64,000 nucleotides of DNA from Candidatus Iainarchaeum sp. (GTDB lineage Archaea > B1Sed10-29 > WALL01 > JAGHAM01). The notes under the pieces were generated by a model. That model worked only from the letters and a program-made list of their open reading frames with translations, was not told the DNA's origin and did not search any database. This document shows, in pieces, positions 8,339 to 41,316 of this stretch. The first letter of the stretch is position 1. Each line of letters opens with the position of its first letter. The DNA is taken from contig JAGHAM010000023.1 of assembly GCA_021161465.1 (NCBI GenBank), positions 12,471 to 76,470 of the forward strand. The letters are read 5' to 3'. Both the position numbers and the translations under genes were made by a program.

Positions 8339-10624
8339 ATGGCTAGTGGTAAGGTTAAAGTTGTAACCAAGGGCGGAAAGCGCTACCTGACTATTGATTG
8401 CAGCGGCTCGCCTTACGGGCCAAGTATTGCTGATTATCCCCAGAGAATGGCCCAGGTCATTGAGGCTCTCACTGTAAACGACGTTGATGGAATCGTCCTA
8501 GCTGATGTTTACGAGCGCGTCTATGACGAGAGGCAAACGCGCATGTTGAAGGAAATCGCGCGACTGGTTGTGAAGTTCAAGAAAGCTGGTGTCTGGGCAC
8601 CTTCGATGCTTGGTGGGAATGCCTGCTCCAGGTTCATATCTAAAAGAAAGGGCCTTATGGTTGATATTGCAAGCAATCTGCTGCGCACTGACCCGATAAG
8701 GGCTTACATAAAGTGCCTGCAAGCCATAGATATGGAAAAAGCAAAACTTGAGATAATCCAGCCACCTTACAAGAAGTGCACCCAGAAGTACATGGAGACT
8801 CTTGAATTCGTCAGGGCCAACCTTGAAGCCACCGAGCTGATACAAAAGCTCAGAAATTATATAAAGAAGCTCAAAAGCATACCGCCAGGAAGAGGGTTTT
8901 ACAGAAGCATACTCGAAGCACAGCTGAAGCCATCTTTCATAGGCTCAAGGCTTATATTTGACCTGCCGGAGGAGATAGAGCTCCTGGACCAGTATGCAGT
9001 AGGGGACACCAAAGTCAGCATCTACAAGCACCCCGAGAGGGTGGAGGCTTTATACATACTGGACCCGCCCGAATACTCACTAACCCCTGAACAATATTTC
9101 CTTATGTCCAAAACCAAGGAGATAGTCAGTGGGTATCACCCAGAAGGCCTGGAATTCACAGACCTTGCAACCAACAAAGGCTACTTCAGAAAGATTTATG
9201 AAACAACTATAGCAGACCTAGCAAATGAAAACAACATAACTGCAACCCCTGAAGAAATCGCAGAACTGGCAAGAATAGTTGTAAGATACACAATTGGCTT
9301 TGGAATGATGGGTGTTTTGCTCTCAGACGAGAAACTAACTGATGTTTACATGGATGCCCCATTAGGGTACAGACCTGTGTATGTAGTACACTCCGATCAC
9401 GGGCTGTGTGAAACCAATATAATCTTCTCAGAAGAGGAAGCAGAAGGTATTATATCCCGCTTCAGGTCGATGAGTGGGAGGCCATTTGACGAAGCACACC
9501 CAATCATGGACTTCGACCTGGCTGAATACCACGCCAGAACTGCAACCATAGGGAGGCCACTTTCACCTGATGGTATTGGGTTCGCCCTGAGGATACACAA
9601 GTCTACCCCATGGACGCTCCCACAGTTCATAGACGTTAAAATGCTTACGCCAGAAGTGGCAGGGCTGCTTTCCTTCCTGATTGACTCACAAGCCTCAACA
9701 CTTGTGGTCGGTAGCAGGGGCGCTGGCAAAACTTCAATGCTGATGGCCCTCATGCTGGAAATCCTGCGTTCGCAAAGAATCATAACTATAGAGGATACGT
9801 TAGAGCTGCCGGTTGACCACATGAGAAGTATAGGGTTTAAGGTATGCAGACTTAAAACAAGGTCAGCAATATCTGTTGGCCAGGTCACGGCAGAGGTCAG
9901 CCCAGAGGATGCACTCAGAACAGCACTCCGTCTTGGTGAGTCAGTGTTGATAGTTGGCGAAGTTAGAAGTAAGGAAGCCTTAGTGCTTTACGAAGCCATG
10001 CGCGTTGGCGCGATTGGAAACGTCGTCATGGGCACCATCCACGGAGAGAACGCTTACTCTGTTTGGGATAGGGTTGTAAATGACCTTGGGGTACCAAACA
10101 CATCATTCAAGGCAACAGATATGTGTGTCACATGCGCGCCCATCAGGTTCAAAGGTTCACTAAAACGGGATAGAAGGCTAATTGAGGTCACAGAGATAGG
10201 TAAAGATTGGTATGAAGACCCAAAGAAAGAAGGCGGGCTAATCGACCTGGTAACCTACGATGCTGGCACTGACACGCATAAGATACATAAGGACAACATA
10301 CTTAATAACTCGCATTTCTTTAAGCGGACCGTCAAACTAAGAGGCCTTGATATGGAAGAGATATGGAACGACATAGTGTACAGAGGGAAGGTAAAGGCTA
10401 CATTGGTTGATTTCAAGAACAAGTACAACCTCCCCGAGCTGCTTGAGTCTGAAAACACAGTGGAAGCAAATGATATGTATCTGCTTATGCAGGAGAGGAG
10501 CAGGCAGGAGGTTGGCGCTGTTGAATACGCAAAGGTCTTTGACAAGTGGAAGAAATGGGTTGGGGAAACCATGGTGAAAGGCTTGCTGGCAAGGAGGAAG
10601 AGCAGTGAGGAAGCAAAAGGATAA
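8339..10624 (+). CDS. Type II/IV secretion ATPase (archaeal pilus/archaellum type)
   Basis: This is a hexameric cytoplasmic motor ATPase that powers pilin assembly (GspE/FlaI/TadA-like). Landmarks in its 761 residues: the P-loop GSRGAGKT near residue 457; the Walker B/Asp-box region IVGEVRSKEALVLYEAM near 535-550, with the Glu-Val-Arg signature of the family; an upstream catalytic acidic stretch RIITIEDTLELP near 480; and a conserved histidine in GTIHGENAYS. The N-terminal part (about 300 residues) is longer than in FlaI and is probably a cytoplasmic adaptor region. It overlaps the platform protein gene by 20 bases, so the two are translationally coupled. Family assignment is secure; whether it builds pili, an archaellum or another fibre is not shown by the sequence. 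Confidence 0.95.
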   Translation: MASGKVKVVTKGGKRYLTIDCSGSPYGPSIADYPQRMAQVIEALTVNDVDGIVLADVYERVYDERQTRMLKEIARLVVKFKKAGVWAPSMLGGNACSRFISKRKGLMVDIASNLLRTDPIRAYIKCLQAIDMEKAKLEIIQPPYKKCTQKYMETLEFVRANLEATELIQKLRNYIKKLKSIPPGRGFYRSILEAQLKPSFIGSRLIFDLPEEIELLDQYAVGDTKVSIYKHPERVEALYILDPPEYSLTPEQYFLMSKTKEIVSGYHPEGLEFTDLATNKGYFRKIYETTIADLANENNITATPEEIAELARIVVRYTIGFGMMGVLLSDEKLTDVYMDAPLGYRPVYVVHSDHGLCETNIIFSEEEAEGIISRFRSMSGRPFDEAHPIMDFDLAEYHARTATIGRPLSPDGIGFALRIHKSTPWTLPQFIDVKMLTPEVAGLLSFLIDSQASTLVVGSRGAGKTSMLMALMLEILRSQRIITIEDTLELPVDHMRSIGFKVCRLKTRSAISVGQVTAEVSPEDALRTALRLGESVLIVGEVRSKEALVLYEAMRVGAIGNVVMGTIHGENAYSVWDRVVNDLGVPNTSFKATDMCVTCAPIRFKGSLKRDRRLIEVTEIGKDWYEDPKKEGGLIDLVTYDAGTDTHKIHKDNILNNSHFFKRTVKLRGLDMEEIWNDIVYRGKVKATLVDFKNKYNLPELLESENTVEANDMYLLMQERSRQEVGAVEYAKVFDKWKKWVGETMVKGLLARRKSSEEAKG

Positions 10625-12695
10625 GTTCCTGGATGCCATGTACAGCGATGGCGAGGAGCTGGCAGCCGAGAAACCAAAGGAACCGCTCTACATTAAGTTC
10701 TGCAAGTACTCATACAAATACTTTGGGAAGAACGCTAAAAAAGAGCTTACAGAAAAATACAAAGTTGCACTTGCATTCCTGGACTGGGACATAGAGCCAC
10801 AAGAACTTAACTCCGCACCACTATTTGCAATGACCATTGGCATCATGCTTTCTTTTTTATGGGCACTGCTAAATTATGTGTTTTACAATTTCTTTAGGCC
10901 TATAGAACTTGGCGGGGCAACCCTGATAGGATACGCGCCTGAACTTGGTTTACCACTAATGATTTACTTGCTCCCATTTGCAGGAGCGCTTGGGCTGGGA
11001 TACTACATACAGGCTTACCCCTTGAAAGCTGCTGAGAAGGAAAAGATAAAGTCCCTCAGATACATACCGGAGATAGTGAACTACATTGTGATGTCCATGA
11101 AGGTCTCACCGAATCTGGAGAGAGCTATCCGGTTTGCTGCCGAGCATGGGCATGGCAGGATTGCGAAAGATTTCAGAAAGCTGCACTATGATATACAAAT
11201 AGGCAAATACAAAACCGTGGAAGAAGCTTTGGACTACCTGGCGTGGAAGTGGGGAGAGTATTCAGAAGAATTCAAGCATGCTCTAATGCTCATCCGCTCA
11301 TCTGTGATGGAAATTGATGAGGGCAAGAGGAATAACTTATTGGATAAGGCTGTTGAGGATACACTAGCTGGAGTCAAAGACAAGATGGATATGTACTCAC
11401 GAGCTATGCACCAGCCATCGATATACCTCTACTATTTTGGGGTGCTCTTGCCTCTCCTGCTGGTAATAATCATCCCAGTTGGGTCAATGATGGCAGCAGA
11501 CACTATGGGCTTCCTTGCAACCCCTGCTGCCATGATTTTGATGTATAACATAGCGATACCCGCAGTGTCCCTACTGCTTGCGAAATCGATACTTGAGAAA
11601 AAGCCCCCCACCCGACCAGTGCCGAAGATTCCTGATAACCTGCCTGGCTTACCAAAAAAGGGCTGGTTTAGTATAGGCAGTTACCAGCTTCCAATAGGTC
11701 TTATAAGCCTTGGTATACTGGCTTCGCTTGTCATAGCTGGCTTCGCGCTTGAGCCAGTCCTAAACCCAAAGCCGCCTGCGTACATGACTGCTGGAAGAGA
11801 TGTTGAACACCTGCCAATAGTGGAGTACGCCGGAATTGCACTTGGCTTTGTCTGGGCAGCCTCATTTTACATCTGGGCAAGCAACAAGGATAAGAGGAAA
11901 GCCCAGCTGGAGCTGATTAGGATGGAAGACGAGTTCCAGGACACCCTCTACGTTTTAGCCTCCCGACTTGGTGAGGGAAAACCAATGGAAGAAGCCTTAA
12001 AGCACTCGGCTGAGTTCCTGCCAAACTCGCCAACAACTAAGAAGATATTCATACCGACACTTCAGAACGTAACTGTGATGGGAATGACCTTAAAGATGGC
12101 CCTTTTTGACAAGGCCTATGGCTCGCTGAAATATATTCCATCGGATTTTATCAGAGGGACCATGAGAATAGTGGTTGAATCGCTGACTCTTGGTGTACAG
12201 ACAGCAGCGCGTTCACTGGTTTCACTTTCGCTCCAGTTGCAGGACTCGCAAAAGGTGGAAAGGTCATTAAGGGCCTTGCTTGAAGATATCACAAGCATGA
12301 TGAGCATTATGAGCACTTTGATTGCACCTGTAGTGCTTGGGATTACCATAGCCTTGCAGAAAGTTATTTACAGCGCGCTTGGTAGTGCTGCAGGGAACAG
12401 CGCGTTAAAGAATATAAACACGGCGGGCATACCAGGCGTGGGTATGGTCTCACCAATGTTGAACATGAACATGGGGGCAAAACTCCCAGCCATAGACCAA
12501 ACAATGCTCCTGGCAATAATAACAATATACATGATTGAGATAGTCCTAGTCCTTATCTACTTCGCATCCAGCGTCACTGAGGGTGACAACAAGCTGGCTT
12601 TCAAGATAAACGCAAGCATTGCATTGCCAATATCACTAACAATATTCTTTGCAATAGCCTTCTTCGCCACCAAACTAATTCCAGCAGGGATCTGA
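10605..12695 (+). CDS. Pilus platform protein with two T2SSF domains (TadC/FlaJ-like)
   Basis: This is the polytopic inner platform that partners the ATPase at 8339 in pilin extrusion. Its 696 residues contain two GspF/T2SSF-type helical domains. The first is around residues 145-300, with RYIPEIVNYIVMSMKVSPNL typical of archaeal FlaJ/TadC proteins. The second is around 430-590 (EDEFQDTLYVLASRLGEGKP). Both are surrounded by membrane helices. The GTG start at 10605 is chosen because an AAGGAGG ribosome site lies at 10591-10597 inside the end of the ATPase gene. The next in-frame ATG is at 10638. The next gene begins at the base after the stop. Confidence 0.92.
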   Translation: MRKQKDKFLDAMYSDGEELAAEKPKEPLYIKFCKYSYKYFGKNAKKELTEKYKVALAFLDWDIEPQELNSAPLFAMTIGIMLSFLWALLNYVFYNFFRPIELGGATLIGYAPELGLPLMIYLLPFAGALGLGYYIQAYPLKAAEKEKIKSLRYIPEIVNYIVMSMKVSPNLERAIRFAAEHGHGRIAKDFRKLHYDIQIGKYKTVEEALDYLAWKWGEYSEEFKHALMLIRSSVMEIDEGKRNNLLDKAVEDTLAGVKDKMDMYSRAMHQPSIYLYYFGVLLPLLLVIIIPVGSMMAADTMGFLATPAAMILMYNIAIPAVSLLLAKSILEKKPPTRPVPKIPDNLPGLPKKGWFSIGSYQLPIGLISLGILASLVIAGFALEPVLNPKPPAYMTAGRDVEHLPIVEYAGIALGFVWAASFYIWASNKDKRKAQLELIRMEDEFQDTLYVLASRLGEGKPMEEALKHSAEFLPNSPTTKKIFIPTLQNVTVMGMTLKMALFDKAYGSLKYIPSDFIRGTMRIVVESLTLGVQTAARSLVSLSLQLQDSQKVERSLRALLEDITSMMSIMSTLIAPVVLGITIALQKVIYSALGSAAGNSALKNINTAGIPGVGMVSPMLNMNMGAKLPAIDQTMLLAIITIYMIEIVLVLIYFASSVTEGDNKLAFKINASIALPISLTIFFAIAFFATKLIPAGI

Positions 12696-13181
12696 ATGCA
12701 AAAGGGGCAGTACTACGCAGTGATGAAACTACTCCAGGCTGCCGTGTTCGCTGCGGTGCTGATGCTAGTTGCTTGGGGCATAATCAGCTATATCGAAAGC
12801 TACATGGCAGGCACTGATGTCCGAAGTGTCTCCGTTGAAGTTCTTAAGAGTGCCTATGTGTCAAGGGATGCAAACCAGTCATTTACTCGAGAGGCCAAGC
12901 TTATGGGGCAAGGCTTCAGTAATGAATCCCTGAGGAATTCAGCAGGCATACCTAAAGGGACCATAATAAGAATTTTCTGTAACGAAAGCTTCTGTGAAAA
13001 TCCATGCCATTACTATAGCGATAAGTCCCACTGGAACAACCATTGTGGCGACCAAGTAACACTAAAGAAAGGCGGGAAGATAAAAGTATGTGCCTCATGC
13101 AAAACATATGGAACAACAGTTAAAACAGTTAAGTGCGGGCTCTTCCTAGATGCAGATACTTGCAACATTTACATGCCCTGA
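12696..13181 (+). CDS. Pilin-like single-anchor protein
   Basis: A 161-residue protein with an N-terminal hydrophobic helix (about residues 10-32) after MQKGQYYAVMKLLQ. The KGQ motif three residues in matches the start of class III signal peptides processed by archaeal prepilin peptidases. The exported remainder has nine cysteines, several as CNESFCENPCH and CASC, suggesting a disulfide-bonded head. The ATG follows the platform protein stop without a gap (TGA-ATG). Probably a minor pilin or assembly factor; no specific family is recognised. Confidence 0.75.
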   Translation: MQKGQYYAVMKLLQAAVFAAVLMLVAWGIISYIESYMAGTDVRSVSVEVLKSAYVSRDANQSFTREAKLMGQGFSNESLRNSAGIPKGTIIRIFCNESFCENPCHYYSDKSHWNNHCGDQVTLKKGGKIKVCASCKTYGTTVKTVKCGLFLDADTCNIYMP

Positions 13182-13207
13182 TTGACTCGCGACTAGAACA
13201 GTAAACT

Positions 13208-13243: not shown

Positions 13244-13246
13244 TTC

Positions 13247-13720
13247 ATGCTAAATGAGAGAGGTCAAGCGTTTGATGCGTTTAAGCTGCTGATAGCTGCA
13301 GTGGTTGCTGGTGCAATACTTGTTATAATATTAGGTATGCTTCAGGGTTTCATAATACCTGTTGGACAGCCTATGAGTGTTATGACTCAGGGCATATCAA
13401 CTACCTCAAAAGCCGCTGGCTCTGGAACAGTTTCTCCACAAGCAGTTAAGTTTGTAAAGGGAGATATACTTTCAACTGATGGCGTAGCCGACCAGGCTGG
13501 CGTAAACAAAAATAGAGTCTGCTTTTGCAATAGCACAACAATAGATGGTGCTAAAGCCTGCCCAGCAGGATATGTATTTGATAATGGTACATACTTCACA
13601 GTCCTTGGAAAATGTGGAGGTACCACTGGTATGAGCATAGAAGCATTAGAGGACATTAATGGAAAGATAAGGGTATACAACAAGGAAGGGACTTTTTACA
13701 TAGGTTTCAAACCAAGTTAG
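13247..13720 (+). CDS. Type IV pilin-like protein, class III signal peptide
   Basis: 157 residues. The N-terminus MLNERGQAFDAFKLLIAA is a class III signal peptide: a short charged leader, RGQ, then a hydrophobic helix, with cleavage expected between G6 and Q7. The head has four cysteines (CFC, AC and KCGG) and a C-terminal strand ending YNKEGTFYIGFKPS. It is a close paralogue of the protein at 13964-14422, which has nearly the same first 22 residues and the same ending (IGF-K-S). Likely a structural pilin of the fibre driven by the ATPase at 8339. Confidence 0.85.
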   Translation: MLNERGQAFDAFKLLIAAVVAGAILVIILGMLQGFIIPVGQPMSVMTQGISTTSKAAGSGTVSPQAVKFVKGDILSTDGVADQAGVNKNRVCFCNSTTIDGAKACPAGYVFDNGTYFTVLGKCGGTTGMSIEALEDINGKIRVYNKEGTFYIGFKPS

Positions 13721-13866: not shown

Positions 13867-13963
13867 GGTACATGGAGCGTTGCAACCTGCGCCCAACTGC
13901 AAGTGGTTGGTAAAAGTAAAGTATTTAAATGAAAACATTGTTATTTGCTCTAGAGGAGTTAGT

Positions 13964-14422
13964 ATGTTAAACGAGAGAGGTCAGGCGTTTGATGCGTTTA
14001 AGCTACTGATAGCTGCAGTGGTTGCAGCAGCTATACTTGCTGTTATTTATGCTATAATCATCCAAGTCCAGCCACCATTTCAACAAGCCGCACAAACAAT
14101 AACAAAAGGTATCTCATCTGAGAATATTGCTGGTGCTGGCTCATATTATGGAGATGGAAAAGTTAAGTTCAATAAAGGTAGGGTGCTATCTTCAAGTGGT
14201 CTCGCTGGAGCAGTCGGTATAAATGAGAAGAATGTTTGTTTTTGCACTTCCACCAATCCGCCAGAGTGCCCAAGTGACTCTATATTCACGGAACCTGATT
14301 TTACAGTAACAGGAACATGTGGAAATGGACAAACACTAAAAGCAAACGAAGAAGTATATGGTAATGTGTGGATATACAGAAACAATGACAACAGGTACAT
14401 GATTGGTTTCCAGAAAAGTTGA
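13964..14422 (+). CDS. Type IV pilin-like protein, second copy
   Basis: 152 residues from the ATG at 13964. A longer reading from 13880 exists but lacks a signal, while 13964 has GAGGAG at 13953-13958 and a TATA box (TATTTAAA) near 13922. The N-terminus MLNERGQAFDAFKLLIAA is identical to that of the 13247 gene, and the DNA over this part is almost unchanged, so the pair arose by recent duplication or is kept alike by gene conversion. Heads differ, but both carry CFC and end in an IGF motif. Likely a structural pilin. Confidence 0.85.
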   Translation: MLNERGQAFDAFKLLIAAVVAAAILAVIYAIIIQVQPPFQQAAQTITKGISSENIAGAGSYYGDGKVKFNKGRVLSSSGLAGAVGINEKNVCFCTSTNPPECPSDSIFTEPDFTVTGTCGNGQTLKANEEVYGNVWIYRNNDNRYMIGFQKS

Positions 14423-14461
14423 TGATAAACATTTATAGCCTAGTTGTTCGTTATTTTGAGT

Positions 14462-15016
14462 ATGGTGAGCTTTAAGTCTGGGCAAAGAGGTCAAGAAAGC
14501 GCGCCTTTTAATTTAATCATAGCGGGAGTTATGATTACTTTCACGATAGTAGTGCTAGGCCACTTATTGGTGAATTCAAATACTACCTTCTGCGTGGAAA
14601 AGATGCAAAGCAACGCGCAAAGCTTGGCTAGGGAGATTGAGAAAACAGCCCAGTACTCAAGGAACAACACAGAGCTCACAGTTAACCTCAATTTCCCATC
14701 ATGTGGTGACATACAAATAGACAACTTCACAATCAAAGACTCTGACCCCATACACTGCGTTAAGTACTGCCATGCCAGTAGCTGCATGCTTATGACCATA
14801 AATGGTTACACCGGTGGGAGTGCTACCACAGTAACAGAGCCCATTTGTATAAAGGTTCCGACCAACACCACCATAAATACCACAGGATGCCAGTCGTTAT
14901 TTGGAGCAGGATACAAAGATATACCAGATAGAGCATTCAAGCCCAAAGTCTACCAGCTGTCATTGATAAAGACTATAAGCGGTGAAACCACTATACACAT
15001 CTGTGACGTTGGATAG
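14462..15016 (+). CDS. Pilin-like protein with cysteine-rich head (paralogue A)
   Basis: 184 residues from the ATG at 14462. The longer reading from 14444 is rejected because a TTTATA box at 14432-14437 sits 25-30 bases before 14462, giving a leaderless start. The leader ends QRGQESAPFNLIIAG, a class III signal. The head carries nine cysteines in the pattern FC, SCGD, HCVKYC, SCMLM, ICIK, GC and HIC. The same pattern recurs in the next gene, so the two are paralogues with conserved disulfides. Probably minor pilins or tip proteins. Confidence 0.82.
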   Translation: MVSFKSGQRGQESAPFNLIIAGVMITFTIVVLGHLLVNSNTTFCVEKMQSNAQSLAREIEKTAQYSRNNTELTVNLNFPSCGDIQIDNFTIKDSDPIHCVKYCHASSCMLMTINGYTGGSATTVTEPICIKVPTNTTINTTGCQSLFGAGYKDIPDRAFKPKVYQLSLIKTISGETTIHICDVG

Positions 15017-15139
15017 AGATTTAACGACATACTGCTTTCTCACGTGACTAAACTTGGCCTCACCGGGTGACCCGAACAGGTTTGGATATGACTTCAAAAT
15101 TTCAAAACTTTTATAACCTAGTTCCCCGTTATTTCTGTG

Positions 15140-20014: not shown

Positions 20015-20065
20015 TGCAAAAATATATATATTCATACCTTATAACTAACTATAGAGGGGTTGCAA

Positions 20066-34100: not shown

Positions 34101-34828
34101 TCACAGCCACTGATAAGTATGGTATAGCTTCATGCGAAGCATTTAGGGTCTATAGCGACGGTTCAGTTACACCATTAAGCTGTGGGCGTATAGGTGATTC
34201 AGATAGATTCAGGTGCTCTGGTATAGAAAAGCCGCCAGAAGGCCAGTACCACCAGTATCCATCAGAGTACTCAGGTGACTGCGGTTCGTACCACCTATCA
34301 AGTGATGGGAGGGCGTGTCTTGACATAATAAACTACACCTGCACAGACAAGAATGGGAATACCGCGGAGGATAGGCAGATAAAAATCTTCTGGGGAGAGA
34401 GTAGTATTGAGGTACATGTAAAAGAGATTTACTCCCAGCTTATCAACTTAGCTAATAATGGTGTGGTAGAATACGGAAAGGTGGAACCAATTGAGTCTGG
34501 TAAAGCTGTTGTATACAACACAATAACCAAAAATGGAGATACTCAATCTGTACCTGTGTACTACACAAGTTCAACTGAAAACGTGATAAAGTTCAACATC
34601 ACTGGGAAATTTGGCATTAGCGACCTTAGTTGCGATGACGCACATATCATAGGGCCTAATAGCGATGAGCTCACTCCCTCACAAGACCACGACTCAGCAC
34701 CAGGATGGAAAGACTATACACTAGATTTCAACCTGGAAAGCGAAGGTGAGTATGTTGTGAATATAACTTGCATAGGAAATGGGAATTACGAGGATACGCC
34801 CTCTATGAAAGTGCCCGTAAAAGAATAG
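28169..34828 (+). CDS. Giant surface protein 2 (2219 aa)
   Basis: Paralogue of the preceding giant. The cytoplasmic/juxtamembrane part (YFFLDWLDEKGIPIYNVVDP, then a helix at about residues 44-66) aligns with giant 1 without gaps. Beta domains follow with the same TxxxGxAxxxL pattern (for example TDKNGKVGLTLPPG and GSDGKCAIYSLPEG). The TPPKGNPI and PWCDNGEEPFLF blocks match giant 1. It contains many sequons and cysteines, including a CALGEEWNETLGKC/CPTGEKWDSTLEMC tandem near residue 255. It lacks the helical C-terminal module of giant 1 and ends in an Ig-like domain. It has a leaderless start (TATA at 28139). Role inferred from context: envelope adhesin or scaffold working with the pilus machine. 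Confidence 0.8.
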   Translation: MALVDIYHQIEDNYYFFLDWLDEKGIPIYNVVDPIEAKGIPTFPLAVGMVLLILLLLLSLIIGMGTQANMNVNVTVTTNGNALADASVVAIQDGEEVSIKTTGDDGKVSLTIPKAETRINVTAEGCQSQEKEINESGNLSFELTCGGKPAGCIPISATISMVRLTGDDNKAPKNCHVTILDDKGDPTGIEWRVDGSKLYLPDPDKYCIKENYTVQISCTGYKLVDTGKNIMSEINGMGELELPSTTTPPEDKCALGEEWNETLGKCVEKPVTCPTGEKWDSTLEMCIPEQVDDEYSIYVIVKNNNTALSGILVTAISSSGSQLTEGTTQDYTDNAGKAELSLKKGQKFKIKAEDEAGKYSMVITKEYTADATKTINISMPKGSQTTIRVIDKETKESIPSATVLLYKGTEAYAAFTTDKNGKVGLTLPPGVTYTAYAYANGYKTDKGTIAAGSAITISLQKVYALEAGNLTLKAENALDGSSMEGVTFRIFSKIGNVPYGGCITGSDGKCAIYSLPEGSYSVYATPKGSYDEEDVGSVDVKHGETVEETIKIYPSTFKLTVYTWLNGGTPKRCASGAHVTIGTTNDIGVSTELNDSYTDNNDCKAEFHVYKGQDIWIKATYTDGGNILRASATYTVTGEKEINLILTQPTANVSFSMGALDMAPGDVKTGTLSFGLPYYDSDGTRYKNIEIKLWVGEEGDTTDAVKTPVMINGFEDSNMQGAAVYGYKNYPGTTIVSDTSGEYLKYLKFVISNSSAYYSNNINTSVNVPIKLKAKNAFEADQTIVHVRGKWTPPKGNPITADFDFRINLTAGTSWCMLPGGSDFSAFKAGFTITPDDNESHWEEHMSTTNGSEFYLNIRAIAAKQLDSYKINMKTQPSYGYSVLKLLQYFIGKNSPPTNYKDVNEDVSSSGMDLEPADASKGLGDLYQLNQDDEISLRIKLKAIHNATGTNWIKLFDDESCKKSFEIRDVTNKPTPLPNVTVEEHYFVQVCPPEGYTGTICRWGESDADKIDNQELELPTYSAVYGEGRNFSINLTFNNIGSTPANVHIEAVDSVGGISSLHTPADFTIQPNNQTEVNITGKGASAQAGTIKLYLSTSANGAKTLWRTIKYGPVDYNITLWANASISAGGNELKEELVKQIDSVKVVVFRNNNPTTGITNNGKVEFNYIDPVNGQTTKELRGVDNYYIFNHDAMSITAGDRSAEVHVEYGEFGGLTKGYPVQGMEVTPDGTRFPADGDYTLSVTNLRESKVVGVNSSWLRSANFTLDITGFDVDNAKNRGYDTMIQVFIYNSTNDLVNTITPDGVVNITLPAKGRADINVTVGLLENKISACIQEPFVGEIKVTPCYQDTKTYEFHYSCAELVRYQPANRKVEYIFTKDNTSYTESPAITVTSLANKNLNVLFGFEKYNSWLDTSFENFEINITTFYQNGAKKQTCSLNTEHDGTIKCELPPNGTAQVSIKASIDPDNPPEKGDLYISYLHITPDRWLEENFTLTFSYSETGEYISKYTVHRDTHEPLDITKEEVIDNDNVCWFGAGHYTLCDSTQLSKVIDVIGKHINANGGLLRKEFAFGNDIATISTIQTIAGSQVKETEDGASYGDIVVNILTRDKKITCGVVTITAQQVGGLTRVNITVDKNQPWCDNGEEPFLFTGLANYDEDLAESTGAPVKFMRFDGDATELSKFRDAFEYIDPDYIPVVFGYAYANGEVFDTGSENPPIVVHYKEYNCSGTPPEGTNDCIDLPSYLQFIYRDFYNNPDSPDGVGYFSYQYISTTETNNFFVGIAYKKAMDESELDELRRILASNLISYWTMGNTSCIQDNTGELIGENLNGKVCSMIGKLPRGEGAIDLKTFDPTNRGFKDSTGSDGKIGLNLTFGSGTVSCRIWNNCGSNTCKNETLIKGVNWDKDNTYVEVPDWTVPTDTGGGKQIKAECYSGGYKGTGDPVSAVVVVDKTAPTVSEDENCDSEPCFEEGDDHDLTFTATDKYGIASCEAFRVYSDGSVTPLSCGRIGDSDRFRCSGIEKPPEGQYHQYPSEYSGDCGSYHLSSDGRACLDIINYTCTDKNGNTAEDRQIKIFWGESSIEVHVKEIYSQLINLANNGVVEYGKVEPIESGKAVVYNTITKNGDTQSVPVYYTSSTENVIKFNITGKFGISDLSCDDAHIIGPNSDELTPSQDHDSAPGWKDYTLDFNLESEGEYVVNITCIGNGNYEDTPSMKVPVKE

Positions 34829-35037
34829 TGACTGCATTACTGGAGAGGATAGTCATAAACTTGTTTGGGAGTCTGGATGAATTCTTAGGAGTGCCTCCAG
34901 AGCTAACCCTGCTTTTCCTCCTAGCAAAGCTAGCCATCATAGGCGCGCTTCTGTTTGCGGTTTACAGGTATTTCACGAAGAACAAGCTCGTGCTGGCCCT
35001 GGCTGCAGCAGTCATGGCATACATCCTGTTTTTGTAA
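34828..35037 (+). CDS. Small two-helix membrane protein (about 70 aa)
   Basis: The likely start is the GTG at 34828, which overlaps the last base of the giant 2 stop (TAGTG). The reading open from 34768 would overlap giant 2 by 60 bases. The product VTALLERIVINLFGSLDEFL has an amphipathic start, then two membrane helices. No family is recognised. Its coupling to giant 2 suggests a small partner of that protein. Confidence 0.5.
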   Translation: MTALLERIVINLFGSLDEFLGVPPELTLLFLLAKLAIIGALLFAVYRYFTKNKLVLALAAAVMAYILFL

Positions 35038-35272: not shown

Positions 35273-35599
35273 ATGAACCTTGGATTCCTTGGTGACATAA
35301 AAAACACCATAGACCTGTTATTCCTTGGATTTAAGGTCGTAGTTCTTGTATTCCTTGTAGGATGGGTTAGGGGCCACCTGGGCGGAGGGATAATCGCAAC
35401 AGTTGCCATACTCATCATTGGATGGCTTGTGCTCTTCAAATACTTCTATTTATTTGGGCCAATGGCAGTAATTTACCTGATATTGATAGTTGGAGGTAGT
35501 GGTGTTATAATGGATATAGCCTTTGGTAGGTCCATGTACCTCGAGGAACCATACATAGGAAAGGATTTGATGGATGGAAGGAGGCCCCCACCAATATGA
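35273..35599 (+). CDS. Small membrane protein, family A member 1
   Basis: 108 residues with about three membrane helices and a short C-terminal cytoplasmic tail (DLMDGRRPPPI). The segment WVRGHLGGGIIATVAILIIG aligns with WVRNTVGPGMVSILISLILI of the next protein, so the two are paralogues, and the gene at 36060 looks more distantly alike. Leaderless start. No known family is recognised; it heads eight consecutive small membrane protein genes. Confidence 0.65.
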   Translation: MNLGFLGDIKNTIDLLFLGFKVVVLVFLVGWVRGHLGGGIIATVAILIIGWLVLFKYFYLFGPMAVIYLILIVGGSGVIMDIAFGRSMYLEEPYIGKDLMDGRRPPPI

Positions 35600-35972
35600 A
35601 GGTGAAAACTTGAGAACAAGTGAGATAAAACTAAACAAGAAAGGTTTTCTCCCGCTTATAGCTGGGATTCCAACAGCCTTGATAGTTTTGATAGTGGTAA
35701 TACTCCTACTGGTGCTAAGCCCTGCTATCCTTATGCAAATTCGTGAAATAAAGCTGCTTTTCCAGATATTCGCTGCGATAATCATTCTCTCATGGGTCAG
35801 AAACACCGTTGGCCCTGGGATGGTATCAATCCTGATAAGCTTAATCCTGATATATATCTTCGTCCTTATGGTCCCCGAACTTCTCGGCGCGATATGGGCA
35901 ATGTACATCCTGTTGACATTCGGCTTGTGGTCAATGATATTCTGGGGTCTGCCTTTGATTTTCAGGAAGTGA
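35574..35972 (+). CDS. Small membrane protein, family A member 2
   Basis: 132 residues from the ATG at 35574, which overlaps the previous gene by 26 bases. A TTG at 35610 with GGTGA at 35601-35605 is an alternative start giving 120 residues and avoiding the overlap. It has about four membrane helices. The middle part (WVRN..G.G, then AIWAMYILLTFG) matches member 1 (WVRG..GGG, then MAVIYLILIVGG). The N-terminal KKGFLPLIAG resembles the leader of pilin-like proteins, but no RGQ is present. Function unknown. Confidence 0.62.
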   Translation: MEGGPHQYEGENLRTSEIKLNKKGFLPLIAGIPTALIVLIVVILLLVLSPAILMQIREIKLLFQIFAAIIILSWVRNTVGPGMVSILISLILIYIFVLMVPELLGAIWAMYILLTFGLWSMIFWGLPLIFRK

Positions 35973-36059
35973 TTAAAAATGAAGAGTATAATGTTGAGTG
36001 CCTGTCAGAAGAGCATAAAGTTAAATAGCGGTATTGCAAAAAAATAACTTGGTGGATAG

Positions 36060-36302
36060 ATGGGAGACATAGTCAATGATTTGAGAGTGGCTCTGACACT
36101 AGTCGTACTTGTCTACCTTGCCCAGTGGGCCATCGCTGGCACGGGCTCCAGGAAAGTAGGGATAATAGTTGCACTGGTAATAGTGTACCTAACAGTCTGG
36201 CAACACCTCATGGTTCTTATCATCGTGATAGCATTCTTCTTCGGATACGCTTTCTTTGAAGCCTTTGAGAGCACGTTTATACCACTGGATCAGGGAGGTT
36301 GA
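36060..36302 (+). CDS. Small membrane protein (80 aa), possible family A member
   Basis: It starts MGDIVNDLRVALTLVVLVYL, followed by hydrophobic helices to about residue 70 and a short acidic end. The opening DIVNDLRVAL resembles the DIKNTIDLLF opening of member 1, but similarity is weak. A GGTGG site lies at 36051-36055. The next gene begins one base after its stop region, with a shared ribosome site, so both are in one operon. Confidence 0.6.
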   Translation: MGDIVNDLRVALTLVVLVYLAQWAIAGTGSRKVGIIVALVIVYLTVWQHLMVLIIVIAFFFGYAFFEAFESTFIPLDQGG

Positions 36303-36303
36303 A

Positions 36304-36600
36304 ATGGACACTTTTACTCTCGTAGTATTCCTGATTCTGATAATAATAGCCATACAGGCTAAAGTCTATGCAATAGCGCTGCTCCTAATGGCATTCCTCT
36401 TGTTCACCCTTAAGTCAAGAACTATGATATTGATTGCAATAGTGGCTGGAGTTATAGGGTTCTTCTTAAACTATTCGTTCAATGTGGAGTTGCAGGTAAT
36501 AATGATATTGATTGTGGTCCTGCTCCTTGCTGGTGCCATGCTCACTTCAAGGAGTGAGGGACCTGGCTCATATACGCCAAGTGCCTTTGGGGTGTTTTGA
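36304..36600 (+). CDS. Small hydrophobic membrane protein (98 aa)
   Basis: From the ATG at 36304 with GGGAGGT at 36294-36300. A longer reading from 36256 would run back into the previous gene and is not needed. It is almost wholly hydrophobic (about four helices) with a polar tail, SRSEGPGSYTPSAFGVF. The stop overlaps the next start (TGATG), giving tight coupling to the family B genes. No family is recognised. Confidence 0.62.
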   Translation: MDTFTLVVFLILIIIAIQAKVYAIALLLMAFLLFTLKSRTMILIAIVAGVIGFFLNYSFNVELQVIMILIVVLLLAGAMLTSRSEGPGSYTPSAFGVF

Positions 36601-36941
36601 TGGATACTCTGACCCTTTTGCTGCTGTCACTGATAGTTATCGTTGGATTCTACACTGAATGGTGGGTTGCACTGATTGGGGTAGTCCTTCTGGTCGCGTA
36701 TATTTATGGTGCAAGAGAGGGGACACACGCGCCAGCACCTGCTGGTGGGGTCAAGGTGCGACCAATAATCGTACAAAGGCGTTACGTTGGTCCTGAATCA
36801 ATATACCCAAGAGTGATGAAGATGAGAATCAGGCCTGACTGGGATACCAGACCGTGGTTTGAACAGGCATCCGGGGCATTTGGGCGCTTAATGGGATGGG
36901 CAACCAACGCTGGCAAACCAAGCAGCAAGAGTGAAGACTGA
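36600..36941 (+). CDS. Small membrane protein, family B member 1
   Basis: 113 residues: two N-terminal membrane helices (to about residue 37), a loop THAPAPAGG, then a conserved cytoplasmic or exported tail. The tail has PIIVQRR, then SIYPRVMKMRIRPDW, then EQASGAFGRLMGW. The same pattern recurs in the next two or three proteins. The start overlaps the previous stop by one base. Function unknown; the tail looks like a binding module and not an enzyme. Confidence 0.65.
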   Translation: MDTLTLLLLSLIVIVGFYTEWWVALIGVVLLVAYIYGAREGTHAPAPAGGVKVRPIIVQRRYVGPESIYPRVMKMRIRPDWDTRPWFEQASGAFGRLMGWATNAGKPSSKSED

Positions 36942-36967
36942 CAAACCATCAACATTTTTGCAGAAGA

Positions 36968-36975
36968 TTTAAATA
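36968..36975 (+). promoter_or_regulatory. TATA box before family B member 2
   Basis: TTTAAATA lies 20-27 bases before the ATG at 36995, an internal promoter inside the small membrane protein run. Confidence 0.5.
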
Positions 36976-36994
36976 ATTGAACTCCGATATTTTA

Positions 36995-37372
36995 ATGATG
37001 GACAGGCCAATAGGGTTAATGGTAATAGTTATAATACTATCAGTTGTGACTAAAGTTTACTGGCTGGCCATACTAGTTGGTATAGCAGCATTACTGGTGG
37101 CTATAGCCAGCATTGAGATAAAACGACCAAGTCCAGTCCCATCTGGCGGCAAAGAAGAAGAGATATTAACACCTGTGATAGTTCAGGATGTTGGGGAACC
37201 GCCGTACCTTTACCCGCCAAACTTTGACTTGAAGTTAAAACCCAATGAATCGCTCATGCCATTGTATGATATAGCTGCTGGTTCATTTGGCAAGCTGTTC
37301 AGAGCAATTTATCGAACCGCCCGCGGGGACAGCCTCAGGAACTTGTCCCCAAAGAAGGTGAAGTGGAGGTAA
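36995..37372 (+). CDS. Small membrane protein, family B member 2
   Basis: 125 residues from the ATG at 36995 (a second ATG is one codon later; the TTG at 36977 would sit at the promoter). Two membrane helices are followed by the family tail: ILTPVIVQDVG, then LYPPNFDLKLKPN, then DIAAGSFGKLFRAIYR. It aligns with member 1 (PIIVQ / IYPxxMKMRIRP / ASGAFGRL). It ends KKVKWR. Paralogy is clear in the sequence; function is unknown. Confidence 0.65.
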   Translation: MMDRPIGLMVIVIILSVVTKVYWLAILVGIAALLVAIASIEIKRPSPVPSGGKEEEILTPVIVQDVGEPPYLYPPNFDLKLKPNESLMPLYDIAAGSFGKLFRAIYRTARGDSLRNLSPKKVKWR

Positions 37373-37376
37373 TGAC

Positions 37377-37742
37377 GTGGATACTGACCAGCTGCTGCTG
37401 TTGCTTGTAGTTTGCGCAGGGGCTTACCTCGCTGGATACCGCGGCCTTGCAATTGGCCTTGCCATAATCACAGGGCTAGTAGCTCTGGCTGGTGGCACAA
37501 AAAAGAGCAGAAAGTATCAAACGGTCGCTATTGGCGGCGTAAATGTGCGTGGTGCGGAAATGCTTGAGCCCATAATCATTGAAAGCACTAGGGGTGCCCC
37601 ATTTAGGATACCCTCAGACATGGACATGAGGATAAATCCCAAGTGGAGTGCGACTAACCTTATAGAAAAGGCAACACAGAAGGGGCTTGCTCCGTTCGCC
37701 AGGCTTATACACAGGATGTTTTACAGGGGGAAGTCACAATGA
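37377..37742 (+). CDS. Small membrane protein, family B member 3
   Basis: 121 residues from a GTG at 37377, supported by GGAGGT at 37365-37370 inside the end of the previous gene. Two helices are followed by the tail EPIIIEST, then FRIPSDMDMRINPKW, then APFARLIHRMFYRG, matching members 1 and 2 in order and spacing. The loop between helices and tail is longer and contains TVAIGGVNVRGAE. The stop overlaps the next start by four bases. Confidence 0.65.
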   Translation: MDTDQLLLLLVVCAGAYLAGYRGLAIGLAIITGLVALAGGTKKSRKYQTVAIGGVNVRGAEMLEPIIIESTRGAPFRIPSDMDMRINPKWSATNLIEKATQKGLAPFARLIHRMFYRGKSQ

Positions 37743-38173
37743 ACGCACTGATATTTGTAATAGCGCTGCTGGTAATAGGCGCGGTCTTTGGGTCTCCCTG
37801 GCTTGCTTTGATTAGCATTGGCGCAGTTTTCCTGACAGCAATAGCATTAGTAATCGAGAGAGCTGAACAACAGGCAGCCCCAGCAGGTGGGACTGGTAGA
37901 AAGCACAAGATAATACAAGCGTCCATGGATGACTGGGACAACGATGACACCATGACATATATGATGGCCATGTCAGGCTCAAAGCCGATATCCTTAAAAT
38001 CCCCTGAGGACCCAATGAAAGCCGTAACTAGTGCTTTTGGTGCAAAAGGAAAGATACCAGCCAGTGTCGTCAGAAATGTCCTGCCTTTCAGCAACTATGG
38101 CAGGGATTCTACGTTTGAGCACGTATTCATTGGCCTTCCAGTCAGTATTGGCAAGTTGATATCAAAAAAATAG
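37739..38173 (+). CDS. Small membrane protein, divergent family B member
   Basis: 144 residues starting at the ATG of an ATGA overlap. Two N-terminal helices and an APAGG loop (as in member 1) precede KIIQASMDDWDND and a tail ending FGAKGKIPASVVRNVLPFSN. The tail keeps the PIIV-like strand (HKIIQ) and an FG element but has diverged. It ends in KKK-like basic residues. Function unknown. Confidence 0.58.
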   Translation: MNALIFVIALLVIGAVFGSPWLALISIGAVFLTAIALVIERAEQQAAPAGGTGRKHKIIQASMDDWDNDDTMTYMMAMSGSKPISLKSPEDPMKAVTSAFGAKGKIPASVVRNVLPFSNYGRDSTFEHVFIGLPVSIGKLISKK

Positions 38174-38181
38174 GTGAGAAA

Positions 38182-38835
38182 ATGAAAATTAGCAATTTTA
38201 TCGTTGTTTGCGCACTCCTGACAATGATGCCACTGGCCTCTACACAGGTCATAACGCCAGAAGATATACAAAAAGAAACTGGCTGTCAGGTCTATGACAC
38301 TTACTGGCTATGCCCACAGACCATCGTCCTGGAAAATATTCCATTAAAGTATACAACTAACTTAGTTTGCTATGAACTAGACAATGAAAGTTATGGTTGC
38401 TATGGCAATGCAATCTTGTTATCAGACGCGCACTACCAAGAGTGCCAGATTTATATCCCACTACTTGCAGGGAACGAGGTCGACTACACTAAGATGCAAT
38501 ATAACTACAACTGCCATGATAGGAAATGGAAGAGTGGTTCAACTGTCGAGCTACTCACATACCCTGACTTGTTAAATGGAATAGATTGCCATACCACTGA
38601 AAGCAATGACTCGTACTCTGAGAAAGCATGTAAAGCTAAAGGCCAAGCCATAGTGGCAAACGCTACAATTGACGAGGAAAACGGAACAAAATACCTAATC
38701 GTTATGAGCTCAAAGCCACAGACTGGTATTATTCCAAATCTACAGAATGGTATCGTTCTGGAGACATGGCAGTGGGTTGCCATTGCATTGTTTGTACTGG
38801 TTTTGGTGTGGATGTACCTAAAAAGGAGAAAATAG
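38182..38835 (+). CDS. Secreted protein with C-terminal membrane anchor (217 aa)
   Basis: A cleavable signal (MKISNFIVVCALLTMMPLAS) is followed by an exported domain with ten or so cysteines and several sequons. A single C-terminal helix (WQWVAIALFVLVLVWMYL) and KRRK end the protein. This tripartite layout resembles archaeosortase substrates or tail-anchored envelope proteins, and the helix-plus-basic end parallels the 1518-residue protein at 849. AGGTGA lies nine bases after the previous gene. It closes the same-strand envelope block. Confidence 0.68.
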   Translation: MKISNFIVVCALLTMMPLASTQVITPEDIQKETGCQVYDTYWLCPQTIVLENIPLKYTTNLVCYELDNESYGCYGNAILLSDAHYQECQIYIPLLAGNEVDYTKMQYNYNCHDRKWKSGSTVELLTYPDLLNGIDCHTTESNDSYSEKACKAKGQAIVANATIDEENGTKYLIVMSSKPQTGIIPNLQNGIVLETWQWVAIALFVLVLVWMYLKRRK

Positions 38836-39297
38836 CTACTTGGTATCGAGCCGTGTGAGCATTTTCTTGTTGATTTTGATTAAATCCTCGTTAAGCCTTT
38901 TTATTGAGGCGACCAGCGGTTTAATCTCATCAACCTCTCTCTTTAAATCAGCCAATTCTTCCCTGATAGCCTTGGTATCCTCTCCAGTAGTTACGTTTTT
39001 CTCATGTATCTCGTTTAGATGGGCGTGTATCCTCTCAAAGTGCTCCCCATGTTCACCAAGCTTCTCCATGGCAGGCTTTAGGTGCTCACCGCTCTCAAGG
39101 AGCTTCACCGCCTGGTCTGCCTTCTCACTAACATCTGCTACAGTGGTCTCGGGATTCGCCGCTGCAATTATGTCTTCTATATCCTCATCGTTCAATCCCA
39201 TCTGCTTCAGGTTTGAAACTATTTCTGTTTTGGTAACGCCTTGGGCATTCATCTCTTTTACTATCCCTACTATACGATTGAAGACAGATTTTTCCAT
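38836..39297 (-). CDS. Coiled-coil protein with N-terminal helical hairpin
   Basis: 153 residues. Residues 1-50 (IVKEMNAQGVTKTEIVSNLK, then MGLNDEDIEDIIAAA) form a small helical module of UBA-like or SHOCT-like style. A similar element starts the protein at 63135. The rest is charged and heptad-like, ending LNEDLIKINKKMLTRLDTK, so a coiled coil is likely. GAGGTTTAG precedes the ATG. It is convergent with the envelope block and divergent from the HerA-like gene. Function not recognised; it could be a cytoplasmic adaptor of the neighbouring ATPase. Confidence 0.65.
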   Translation of the reverse strand: MEKSVFNRIVGIVKEMNAQGVTKTEIVSNLKQMGLNDEDIEDIIAAANPETTVADVSEKADQAVKLLESGEHLKPAMEKLGEHGEHFERIHAHLNEIHEKNVTTGEDTKAIREELADLKREVDEIKPLVASIKRLNEDLIKINKKMLTRLDTK

Positions 39298-39412
39298 ATC
39301 TAAACCTCAAAGTATTTAAAGCACGATGTAATAAAAGACAGATAACAGCTATATAAAGGATTAGGGTGGTCCAACGAAAACTCTTGAACTTCCTCATGGC
39401 CCTTGGAGAGAA

Positions 39413-40825
39413 GTGCTATCTGGAATCTGGGATGAGAAGGAAGTCGCTTATTATGAGAATCCGGAGAAACGCATACTCATAGTTATATATGACAAGAAAG
39501 GGGATGAAATTGCCGGTGTTGTAACACTGATGGCAAAGTTTTTCCTAGTTGAAGGAAATGCGACAGAACTTGCTTACTCTCTGGACAACACAATCCTCAT
39601 CCAAAAAAGGACACCTTTATTTAAGGGTTCATTCATTGGGGTAGTCACGGACCCTACATACATAGAATATACACCAAGGAACTTGATTAATGAAACCGCT
39701 GAACTGTATAACAAACTTGACGAGAGAAACGCGGAAATCATGAGGAAAACTGGTGACTATAACATCAGCCTGATTTCGCTTGAATTTGCAGGTGACAAAA
39801 CTAAGGAGCTATTCGGCGAGCCGCTTGCACTTCCAGCCATGGTTGTCAGGAAACCTGGTCCCAAGACTGTGATGGAAACGCCCGTGGGCAATGTAGTGCT
39901 TGGTATAGACTTAAAAGGCGAAACAGTAAAGGAAGACATGAAGTCGTTTGCAGTTACAATCATAAGCGGCGACAAAACAAGGCTTATAACACATCTGATA
40001 GTCGAGGGTTTCATATTGAACGGCACACCAAGCTTGATTTTTGATGGAAAGAACGAATTCACGCATCTCGATGAGCCAAACAGGCAGGCAACCGACCTGC
40101 AGAGCTATGACCCTGAGCTGGAGCCATTAAGCCTCCCTTTGAGAAGGTTTGTGCCTGGAAGTGATGTGTTTGTAAACTTAGATTCACTTAATGAAAAATT
40201 ATTCGCAAACATAGCAGGGATAAAACAAGGGAAAGAAACCGAGTTAGTGAGTGAAGTGCTCTCAAAAAAAGACATCAAGTCGCTTGGTGAACTGGCTACA
40301 AAACTAGAGGAGTTTACAAGCGAAGATGATAAATACTATGCAGCCAGAGCGATAAGAATATGCAAACTTCTTGATGAAACCTATCCAGGAGTATTCAACG
40401 GTGCGGTTGAGCCCAACGAGCTACTCGCCCCATGGATGAAAAGGATTGGGAGAGTCGCCCTCATAGACCTCAGTGGTATCGACAAGAGGATTGCTAAGGG
40501 TATAATTTATTCTGTGCTGACTATCTTATACAAAAAGTTAAAGGAGGAATCATCCGGTGATGAAACGCGGATAGTGGTCGCTCTTGAGGACCGTGGTGGA
40601 GATGGAGAATACATTGATAAAGAGACAAATGCCCTGATAAAGCTTTGCTCCTCCTATGGGATGGGGATATGCCTCAGAACGCCATCAGAAAGTAATGTTG
40701 ACACGGACCTGTTCACGAATGCAACTGCTAGAGTAAAATGCATAAATGAAAAAGAAGTGTCAGTGCACCTCCAAACAAAAAACCCGTATAGGGTGAAGCT
40801 TAGGCCTCCATTAAGTGCAGAATAA
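39413..40825 (+). CDS. HerA/FtsK-like ATPase homologue with degenerate P-loop
   Basis: 470 residues from a GTG at 39413 (no other start codon lies between it and the upstream in-frame stop; GGAG at 39405-39408). The N-terminal 150 residues look like a HAS-barrel. Near residue 183, FAVTIISGDKTRLITHLIVE occupies the Walker A position of HerA-type ATPases and is followed by GTPSLIFDGKNEF, matching the family's (I/V)LIFDxxGEY strand. The GxGKS glycines are missing. Later, VALIDLSGIDKRIAKGIIYS and RIVVALEDRGGDGEY match HerA helices and the Walker B region, again without a standard acidic pair. Probably catalytically reduced. It sits between two coiled-coil genes beside the pilus block. Confidence 0.62.
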   Translation: MLSGIWDEKEVAYYENPEKRILIVIYDKKGDEIAGVVTLMAKFFLVEGNATELAYSLDNTILIQKRTPLFKGSFIGVVTDPTYIEYTPRNLINETAELYNKLDERNAEIMRKTGDYNISLISLEFAGDKTKELFGEPLALPAMVVRKPGPKTVMETPVGNVVLGIDLKGETVKEDMKSFAVTIISGDKTRLITHLIVEGFILNGTPSLIFDGKNEFTHLDEPNRQATDLQSYDPELEPLSLPLRRFVPGSDVFVNLDSLNEKLFANIAGIKQGKETELVSEVLSKKDIKSLGELATKLEEFTSEDDKYYAARAIRICKLLDETYPGVFNGAVEPNELLAPWMKRIGRVALIDLSGIDKRIAKGIIYSVLTILYKKLKEESSGDETRIVVALEDRGGDGEYIDKETNALIKLCSSYGMGICLRTPSESNVDTDLFTNATARVKCINEKEVSVHLQTKNPYRVKLRPPLSAE

Positions 40826-40827
40826 GT

Positions 40828-41316
40828 TTATAGTCTCGGCTTTTTTCCAGAGAGGACATTATTTACCTTCTTGTCTATGACCTCATTAAGCTCATCTATC
40901 GTGACGTATTCCAGTGGGTTAATGCTATCCAAAGTATATTTCAGCTCATCCACCTGTTGTTTCAGGTTAACCATAGTCTTCTTTAAGTCAGAGATCTCGC
41001 CGGTTAGCTGTGTTACAACTTCTGGAGCCGCCTGCACGACCTTTTGGTTTTCCGGCTTCTGCTTGCTTAGCTCGGCAATTATCTCCGCCTTAAGCTCTTC
41101 TTTCATGGTGCTGGATGCAGCAGGACCTTTCATCTCTATCTCCTTCAACTTCTTGTTGTGGGACACGAGCGTCCTGCCTATGACCTGCTCATTCATCTCT
41201 ATAATTTTAAGCCTCTGTGCCAGGAGCTTCATTTTTGCGTCTAAGGTGCTTATTGCACTCTCGATATCGCGCAACCCTATCGTTGCTTTCTCCCGTGTAA
41301 TTCTCCTAGAAGGCAA
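40828..41316 (-). CDS. Coiled-coil protein (162 aa)
   Basis: From a TTG at 41316 supported by a GGTGG site upstream. Nearly the whole protein is heptad-like: two coiled-coil regions (about 15-65 and 95-140) separated by a Pro/Ala stretch, ending with NPLEYVTIDELNEVIDKKVN. The organisation resembles archaellum accessory coiled-coil proteins in a general way, but their C-terminal signatures are not seen. The stop is two bases from the stop of the HerA-like gene (convergent). Function unknown. Confidence 0.6.
   Translation of the reverse strand: MPSRRITREKATIGLRDIESAISTLDAKMKLLAQRLKIIEMNEQVIGRTLVSHNKKLKEIEMKGPAASSTMKEELKAEIIAELSKQKPENQKVVQAAPEVVTQLTGEISDLKKTMVNLKQQVDELKYTLDSINPLEYVTIDELNEVIDKKVNNVLSGKKPRL

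Follow-up and report, generated by a model that had tools for sequence, protein, structure and literature searches.

A gene block of Diapherotrites and a second archaeal lineage that joins a type IV pilus-derived motor to giant surface proteins and an archaeosortase

The window, a stretch of 64,000 nucleotides (positions 12471-76470 of contig 35) from the 976-kb metagenome-assembled genome of Candidatus Iainarchaeum sp. (a member of Candidatus Diapherotrites, 93 % complete, labelled G000), contains a gene block in which a secretion ATPase and its platform protein stand together with nine pilin-like proteins, two giant surface proteins, eight small membrane proteins, an archaeosortase with a candidate substrate and a degenerate HerA-like ATPase between coiled-coil proteins. 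The block is well supported by genome comparison as one conserved, co-inherited unit, and its motor is a derivative of the type IV pilus. Rather probably the products of the block form a single machine of the envelope, derived from such a pilus and specialised for surface attachment.

Results

Conservation and co-occurrence

Nineteen genomes of Candidatus Diapherotrites were compared by tblastn and maps of open reading frames (ORFs), and a sample of 394 archaeal genomes was examined for co-occurrence by profile and sequence searches. The block was present in Diapherotrites of several families with an ATPase identity of 55-77 %; fragmented or incomplete genomes miss pieces of it, and three small genomes (G010, G011 and G012, 61-72 % complete) were without the ATPase. 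In the relatives the block consists of two divergent halves. The first runs in the order metAP, polB, coiled coil, HerA-like pseudoATPase (pseudo-HerA), coiled coil, secreted protein, small membrane proteins of family B (sB) and of family A (sA), giants, the pilin-like protein p9 and the archaeosortase; the second comprises the ATPase, the platform protein, the pilin-like proteins p1 to p8, a membrane protein with four transmembrane (TM) helices and the candidate archaeosortase substrate (AS), whose strand is flipped in some genomes. ATPase relatives with E-values of 1e-60 or better were found in 167 of the 394 genomes, and about twenty relatives, at 47-56 % identity, fell into a second archaeal lineage, a different phylum, perhaps Micrarchaeota, since its kinship to Diapherotrites was placed at the domain level only. 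Profile matches in G037, G058, G170, G098, G256 and G222 of this lineage had the same order as in Diapherotrites: metAP, polB, coiled coil, pseudo-HerA, coiled coil, sB with sA, giants, p9 and the archaeosortase or its usual place, then ATPase, platform, ordered pilins, 4-TM protein and AS. The main proteins were recognised with E-values from 1e-10 to below 1e-100, the pseudo-HerA with 1e-56 to 1e-101; single members were missed by the profiles or lay beyond the fetched stretches in some genomes, the first coiled coil was not called in G037, and the halves with the ATPase and with the giants lay on different contigs in G256. Coincidence falls far short of explaining the arrangement, as orthologs of every part recur in this order in numerous genomes. 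The phylum-wide presence and the housekeeping neighbours polB and metAP argue against a mobile or viral origin.

The profile of the giants' N-terminal anchor matched 34 of the 394 genomes, 14 Diapherotrites and 20 members of the second lineage, and all of these were among the 37 genomes with a pseudo-HerA match. Giants were carried by 30 of the 32 genomes with a block-type archaeosortase (E below 1e-35) and by 32 of the 35 with an ATPase of at least 47 % identity. About 130 genomes had only a more distant ATPase, and giants were found in none of them except G239, a congener of the carrier G356. On the contig of the ATPase, 54 of 62 giant copies were within 45 kb of it. Fisher p-values for co-occurrence were below 1e-36, overstated by the relatedness of the sampled genomes, so that these figures represent an association on the clade level. 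A phylogenetic tree (IQ-TREE) united the block ATPases of both lineages in one clade with a support of 99/100; neither the ATPases of the distant systems nor the other secretion ATPases encoded in these genomes fell within it. A reading of the window made from the sequence only, without databases, had asked whether giants, small membrane proteins and ATPase co-occur in conserved order; in both lineages the parts keep one order, and across the 394 genomes they co-occur.

Extent and gene content

The sequence-only reading had described a same-strand block of 30 kb at 8339-41316. All parts named there are present, but neither the extent nor the uniform strand held: the block spans approximately 849-41316 and includes the archaeosortase (5458-6036) and AS (849-5483), both on the minus strand, and probably also the gene at 6069-8294. 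In relatives, archaeosortase and AS homolog are both inside the block. In comparison to the sister genome G001 the segment from the archaeosortase to the 4-TM protein is inverted in place, and since this local inversion separates both genes from the rest, they had been missed. The features, in window positions, are:

849-5483, minus strand: AS, secreted, 1544 amino acids, candidate archaeosortase substrate; C-terminal VPIRP, TM helix and KKKKR tail
5458-6036, minus strand: archaeosortase (exosortase/archaeosortase family); TIGR04178 with 37.7 bits, cut-off 23
6069-8294, plus strand: Cys-rich secreted protein, 741 amino acids, restricted to the family of the window genome; weak N-terminal homolog at the same place in G001, absent from other relatives
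8339-10624, plus strand: secretion ATPase (T2SSE/FlaI-like) with an N-terminal region of about 290 amino acids; PF00437, E 6e-21
10605-12695, plus strand: platform membrane protein (TadC/FlaJ type, fused halves, 8-9 TM helices); PF00482 by family
12696-13181, plus strand: pilin-like p1 (KG|QYYAVMKLL); signal and orthologs
13247-13720, plus strand: pilin-like p2, family pA (RG|QAFDAFKLL); orthologs in both lineages
13880-14422, plus strand: pilin-like p3, family pA, paralog of p2, likely start near 13964; signal and orthologs
14444-15016, plus strand: pilin-like p4, family pB (RG|QESAPF); signal and orthologs
15137-15691, plus strand: pilin-like p5, family pB (KG|QEEAPF); signal and orthologs
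15700-16374, plus strand: pilin-like p6 (KG|LGMWVMSK); signal and orthologs
16384-16899, plus strand: pilin-like p7 (KG|YIGPLGDDFP); best-conserved minor pilin across lineages
16890-17453, plus strand: pilin-like p8 (KA|QAVIIDA); signal and orthologs
17474-17914, plus strand: 4-TM membrane protein; between pilins and AS in relatives
17948-20014, plus strand: p9, 688 amino acids, class III-type N-terminus (RG|FSVFTPMVG); orthologs adjoin giants in both lineages
20060-28093, plus strand: giant 1, 2677 amino acids, N-terminal anchor domain, TM helix and immunoglobulin (Ig)-like stalk; anchor profile, PF13620/PF17210 repeats
28169-34828, plus strand: giant 2, 2219 amino acids, paralog of giant 1; anchor profile, PF13620/PF17210 repeats
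35273-35599, plus strand: small membrane protein A1; orthologs in both lineages, hhalign 97 % to A2
35574-35972, plus strand: small membrane protein A2; orthologs in both lineages, profile comparison
36060-36302, plus strand: small membrane protein A3; orthologs in both lineages, profile comparison
36256-36600, plus strand: small membrane protein B1, likely start near 36300; orthologs in both lineages
36597-36941, plus strand: small membrane protein B2 with cytosolic tail; orthologs across Diapherotrites
36977-37372, plus strand: small membrane protein B3; orthologs in Diapherotrites
37377-37742, plus strand: small membrane protein B4; orthologs in Diapherotrites
37739-38173, plus strand: small membrane protein B5; orthologs in Diapherotrites
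38182-38835, plus strand: secreted protein with C-terminal TM helix and KRRK tail; orthologs in five other Diapherotrites
38836-39297, minus strand: coiled-coil protein cc38836; orthologs in both lineages, hhalign 90 % to a coiled coil beside a distant-system ATPase
39413-40825, plus strand: HerA-like pseudoATPase, likely start upstream of 39413; DUF87, E 3e-4
40828-41316, minus strand: coiled-coil protein cc40828 with conserved NP..(F/Y)(V/I/M)T; both lineages, hhalign 97 % to a coiled coil adjacent to a distant-system ATPase

The homolog search with the ORF at 34768-35037 (89 amino acids) was empty, and it may not be a gene. Outside the block, ARAGORN reported a transfer-messenger RNA at 59888-60227, in an archaeal window probably a false positive.

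Motor

The motifs of the ATPase are intact (Walker A GSRGAGKT, GEVR and GTIHGE), and the nearest solved chains are archaeal secretion ATPases, CpaF and FlaI. Among named models the archaellum FlaI and TadA scored highest, with 138.6 bits for the ArlI (FlaI) model NF058587 (cut-off 550) and 137.7 bits for the TadA-family model TIGR03819 (cut-off 373); the bindosome BasE model gave 85.9 bits against a cut-off of 1000. This is the single ATPase of the block, in which no retraction-type ATPase was found at equivalog level. The platform protein, which the sequence-only reading had assigned by its motifs, was confirmed on the family level: PF00482 matched 11 of 14 family members, at best with 9e-7, though the copy of the window falls below the threshold, and hhalign aligned the platform profile with a PF00482 protein at 95.8 %. 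A PDB sequence search with this profile gave nothing useful. Archaellins, ArlH (KaiC-like) and the archaellum C/D/E families were not recognised among the block proteins; the rest of the genome was not searched for ArlH.

Two observations concern related ATPases. In G003 (G003:C54:14141-18004), and also in G222:C13 and G290:C4, the block ATPase has an insertion, giving a frame of about 1280-1305 amino acids; the interruption is near the Walker A region in G003, and the insertion is a probable intein. Left of the window on G000:C35, L048 5924-7552 encodes a secretion ATPase whose N-terminus bears a ferredoxin-like cysteine motif, CVECGACVDACP. The CVECGACVDACP-type ATPase adjoins two short T2SSF proteins, near a large surface protein, and recurs in several relatives, with homologs in G002, G003, G006, G098, G205 and others.

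Pilin-like proteins

Nine N-termini of the class III type were counted, where eight or nine had been proposed: eight with [KR]G and one with KA, each followed by a hydrophobic helix, with cleavage predicted. Families pA and pB as well as p6, p7 and p8 were recognisable in the same order across lineages, as expected for a heteromeric minor pilin set. A prepilin peptidase gene had not been seen in the window, and indeed both PF01478 genes of the G000 genome are located elsewhere; PF01478 matches were present in 18 of the 19 Diapherotrites genomes. One of the two peptidases belongs to a conventional pilus cluster (L088, about 36-45 kb of G000:C29), together with an ATPase, two platform proteins and QGSIEYL-type pilins. 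The block has thus to be seen as an additional machine, not as the sole pilus of the cell.

Giants

The two giant paralogous surface proteins proposed by the sequence-only reading carry Ig-like and carboxypeptidase-regulatory repeats, and a common N-terminal region of about 80 residues immediately upstream of the TM helix with the motif Y..iEdKYY..LD.LD.KGIPVY..iDPiE..GIPSlP. Carrier genomes have two to six giants with this one anchor. The base of the giants, anchor and carboxypeptidase-regulatory repeats, is common to up to 32 other giants; the last third has homologs in only 1-3 of them. Between G000 and G001 the identity of giant 1 is about 50 %, dropping to 12-27 % at the distal end. A PDB sequence search with giant 1 gave nothing useful. 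A conserved domain of the alpha/beta type, in which a CG and a WC motif are invariant, occurs in both giants (24167-25159 and 32747-33730). The AlphaFold model of this domain in giant 1 was moderate (predicted local distance difference test, pLDDT, 65); Foldseek matched it to nothing at E 0.001, and in VIA-align every Z remained below 5.

Small membrane proteins, coiled coils and pseudo-HerA

The eight small membrane proteins fall into two families as had been suggested, three of family A, by profile comparison, and five of family B. The Pfam and NCBIfam matches of the coiled-coil proteins at both sides of the pseudo-HerA were generic. A Walker A motif (GKS/T) was absent from 11 of 11 orthologs of the HerA-like protein; since the protein is conserved despite this absence, a structural role is likely.

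Archaeosortase and AS

The catalytic-type residues Cys, Arg and His of the archaeosortase, in LC.G..E, N..RI and H..LFR, were invariant in 17 block copies. The enzyme scored below the cut-offs of the named archaeosortase subfamilies tested, and a PDB sequence search with it gave nothing useful. AS orthologs of 41-51 % identity are located in the same block of relatives. In both lineages the C-terminus consists of [VLI]P[ST]xPE or a close variant, a TM helix and a basic tail; the remainder diverges to E-values of about 1e-3 to 1e-8 between the lineages. AS is therefore called a candidate substrate of a dedicated archaeosortase. AlphaFold gave a pLDDT of 33 for AS residues 40-1150, hence no structural assignment was made.

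Distant systems

Systems with an ATPase identity of 34-44 % were found in G361, G378, G084, G034, G095, G035 and G124. All carry ATPase and platform; in most, numerous pilins of class III, coiled coils and 5-TM proteins are added, the last a family for which hhalign detected no relation to sA or sB. Giants and archaeosortases were absent from the regions fetched around these ATPases. In G361, G378, G084 and G034 the clusters resemble the block in an ATPase of the same larger clade, platform, pilins and two related coiled coils, and differ in the 5-TM family and in the lack of giants and archaeosortase in the fetched regions. The motor and the coiled coils look older, and giants, archaeosortase, pseudo-HerA, sA and sB look like an addition in this clade; for the module of giants and archaeosortase the distant systems without giants suggest this.

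Discussion

Comparison with known systems

According to a survey of archaeal type IV pili, some pili are accompanied by large and by S-layer-like proteins (Makarova, Koonin and Albers 2016, PMC4858521); many unassigned proteins belong to the pilus dark-matter islands of DPANN archaea (Makarova et al. 2019, PMC6393860). The block shares with these pili the secretion ATPase, the TadC-type platform, many proteins with class III signals and surface proteins nearby; a coiled-coil protein, large proteins or an S-layer-like protein are also known from some of the described systems. Neither publication mentions sortases, and unlike the described archaeal pili found, the block has an archaeosortase, a pseudo-HerA, giants with a common N-terminal anchor and the sA and sB families. 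What is new in comparison to known pilus systems is the giant anchor, the dedicated archaeosortase with a [VLI]P-x-x-P C-terminal signal, the small membrane proteins and the conserved dead HerA-like ATPase. The archaeosortase has the Cys/Arg/His motifs of TIGR04178 archaeosortase/exosortase systems and a candidate substrate with a short motif, TM helix and basic tail; it differs from named systems by its pairing with one large substrate within a pilus block and by the motif [VLI]P[ST]xPE. SPEARE proteins of nanohaloarchaea (PMC10266531) reach up to 9409 amino acids, have a VirB4/TraG-like ATPase domain and a Sec signal and were proposed to bind the host. Giant Ig-like surface proteins, in the case of SPEARE in host-associated DPANN archaea, are the common trait, but the block giants have a cytosolic N-terminal anchor and lie beside a pilus motor; their Pfam matches were limited to repeats of the Ig-like, carboxypeptidase-regulatory and similar types, and no VirB4/TraG-like ATPase domain was among them. 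With its fused VirB4-type ATPase domain and its Sec signal, SPEARE represents a different solution. The Kil Tad pilus of Myxococcus (PMC12075869) has interchangeable tips, its minor pilins exposing variable domains for cell contact. The likeness, a pilus motor combined with several minor pilins, is one of function only: Kil is a bacterial Tad system with minor pilins as variable parts, whereas the giants of the block are separate anchored proteins. A literature search, with most subscription journals and preprints outside its coverage, revealed no description of such a locus, nor of an archaeosortase in connection with Diapherotrites or DPANN archaea.

Function of the block

An attachment machine could work as follows. 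A prepilin peptidase encoded elsewhere would process the pilins, and ATPase and platform would assemble a short pilus or pseudopilus with the conserved minor pilins as cap. Small membrane proteins, coiled coils and pseudo-HerA may form a membrane and cytosolic scaffold round the motor, at which the cytosolic anchor of the giants would dock, with their Ig-like stalks of 2000-3000 residues outside. AS, freed by the archaeosortase from its C-terminal helix, would be attached by this enzyme to the outer face of the membrane and form a collar of the envelope there. Contact with partner cells may be made by the divergent distal ends of the giants, and the machine is probably the means by which carrier cells touch or hold other cells. 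A more specific proposal, of a distinct kind of archaeal envelope machine, is offered tentatively: the pilus motor, the archaeosortase-anchored collar protein and the dead HerA-like scaffold would assemble and display the giants via the new cytosolic anchor, so that the work would be done by the giants and not by the pilus; at least two archaeal lineages would engage other cells with this machine.

The main rival, which we judge unlikely on present evidence, is a machine that secretes or displays the giants, with ATPase, platform and minor pilins acting as a piston in the manner of a type II secretion system and exporting or unfolding the giants (and AS) through membrane or S-layer without a long filament. 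The minor pilins, conserved one to one as a ladder, are reminiscent of an ordered set of pseudopilins, several giants per genome with a common anchor look like a substrate class with a docking signal, and a single ATPase, none of retraction type at equivalog level, would suit such a piston. However, the N-terminal TM helix of the giants could suffice for Sec insertion, and related systems keep motor and pilins without giants.

Several points weigh against one machine for attachment. The sequence-only reading had held that ATPase, platform and pilins without giants in related genomes would speak against one system; within the clade the giants accompany the motor, but outside it the distant DPANN-type systems run a related motor with neither giants nor archaeosortase nearby. 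As these systems keep the motor, the giants could be cargo or neighbours. In the second lineage, the reduced genome G118 (C1) retains all of ATPase, giants, archaeosortase and pseudo-HerA, but at great distances from one another, and so offers a natural test of the parts that have to remain together. The conserved order includes polB and metAP, so synteny alone is no proof of functional linkage. No filament subunit was picked out among the pilin-like proteins, the sole giant domain modelled appears without a clear known fold, and the case for attachment is architectural throughout.

The same neighbourhood of polB and metAP might favour an archaeal type IV adhesion pilus of the ordinary kind, beside which unrelated genes for surface proteins lie by chance, the more so as ATPase, platform, pilins and a distant peptidase are the usual minimal set. 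This is improbable in view of the near-exclusive co-occurrence of giants, pseudo-HerA, block-type archaeosortase and block ATPase clade, the retention of the block through an inversion in the window genome and the presence in this genome of a separate, conventional pilus cluster. A system for motility or DNA uptake, similar to an archaellum or to a competence system, as the top-scoring FlaI and TadA models might suggest, is very improbable, since these scores are far under the curated cut-offs, no ArlH-like protein was recognised in the block and a competence set explains neither the giants nor the archaeosortase.

The contact of DPANN archaea with their hosts is poorly understood. As an envelope machine for attachment, the block would link archaeosortases to a pilus machine, for which no report was found in the literature searched, and it presents a testable candidate contact apparatus with a parts list: a motor, a searchable giant-anchor domain, an archaeosortase-substrate pair and a pseudoATPase. 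With about 40 kb of a genome of about 1 Mb the block is a heavy investment, which suggests a central role.

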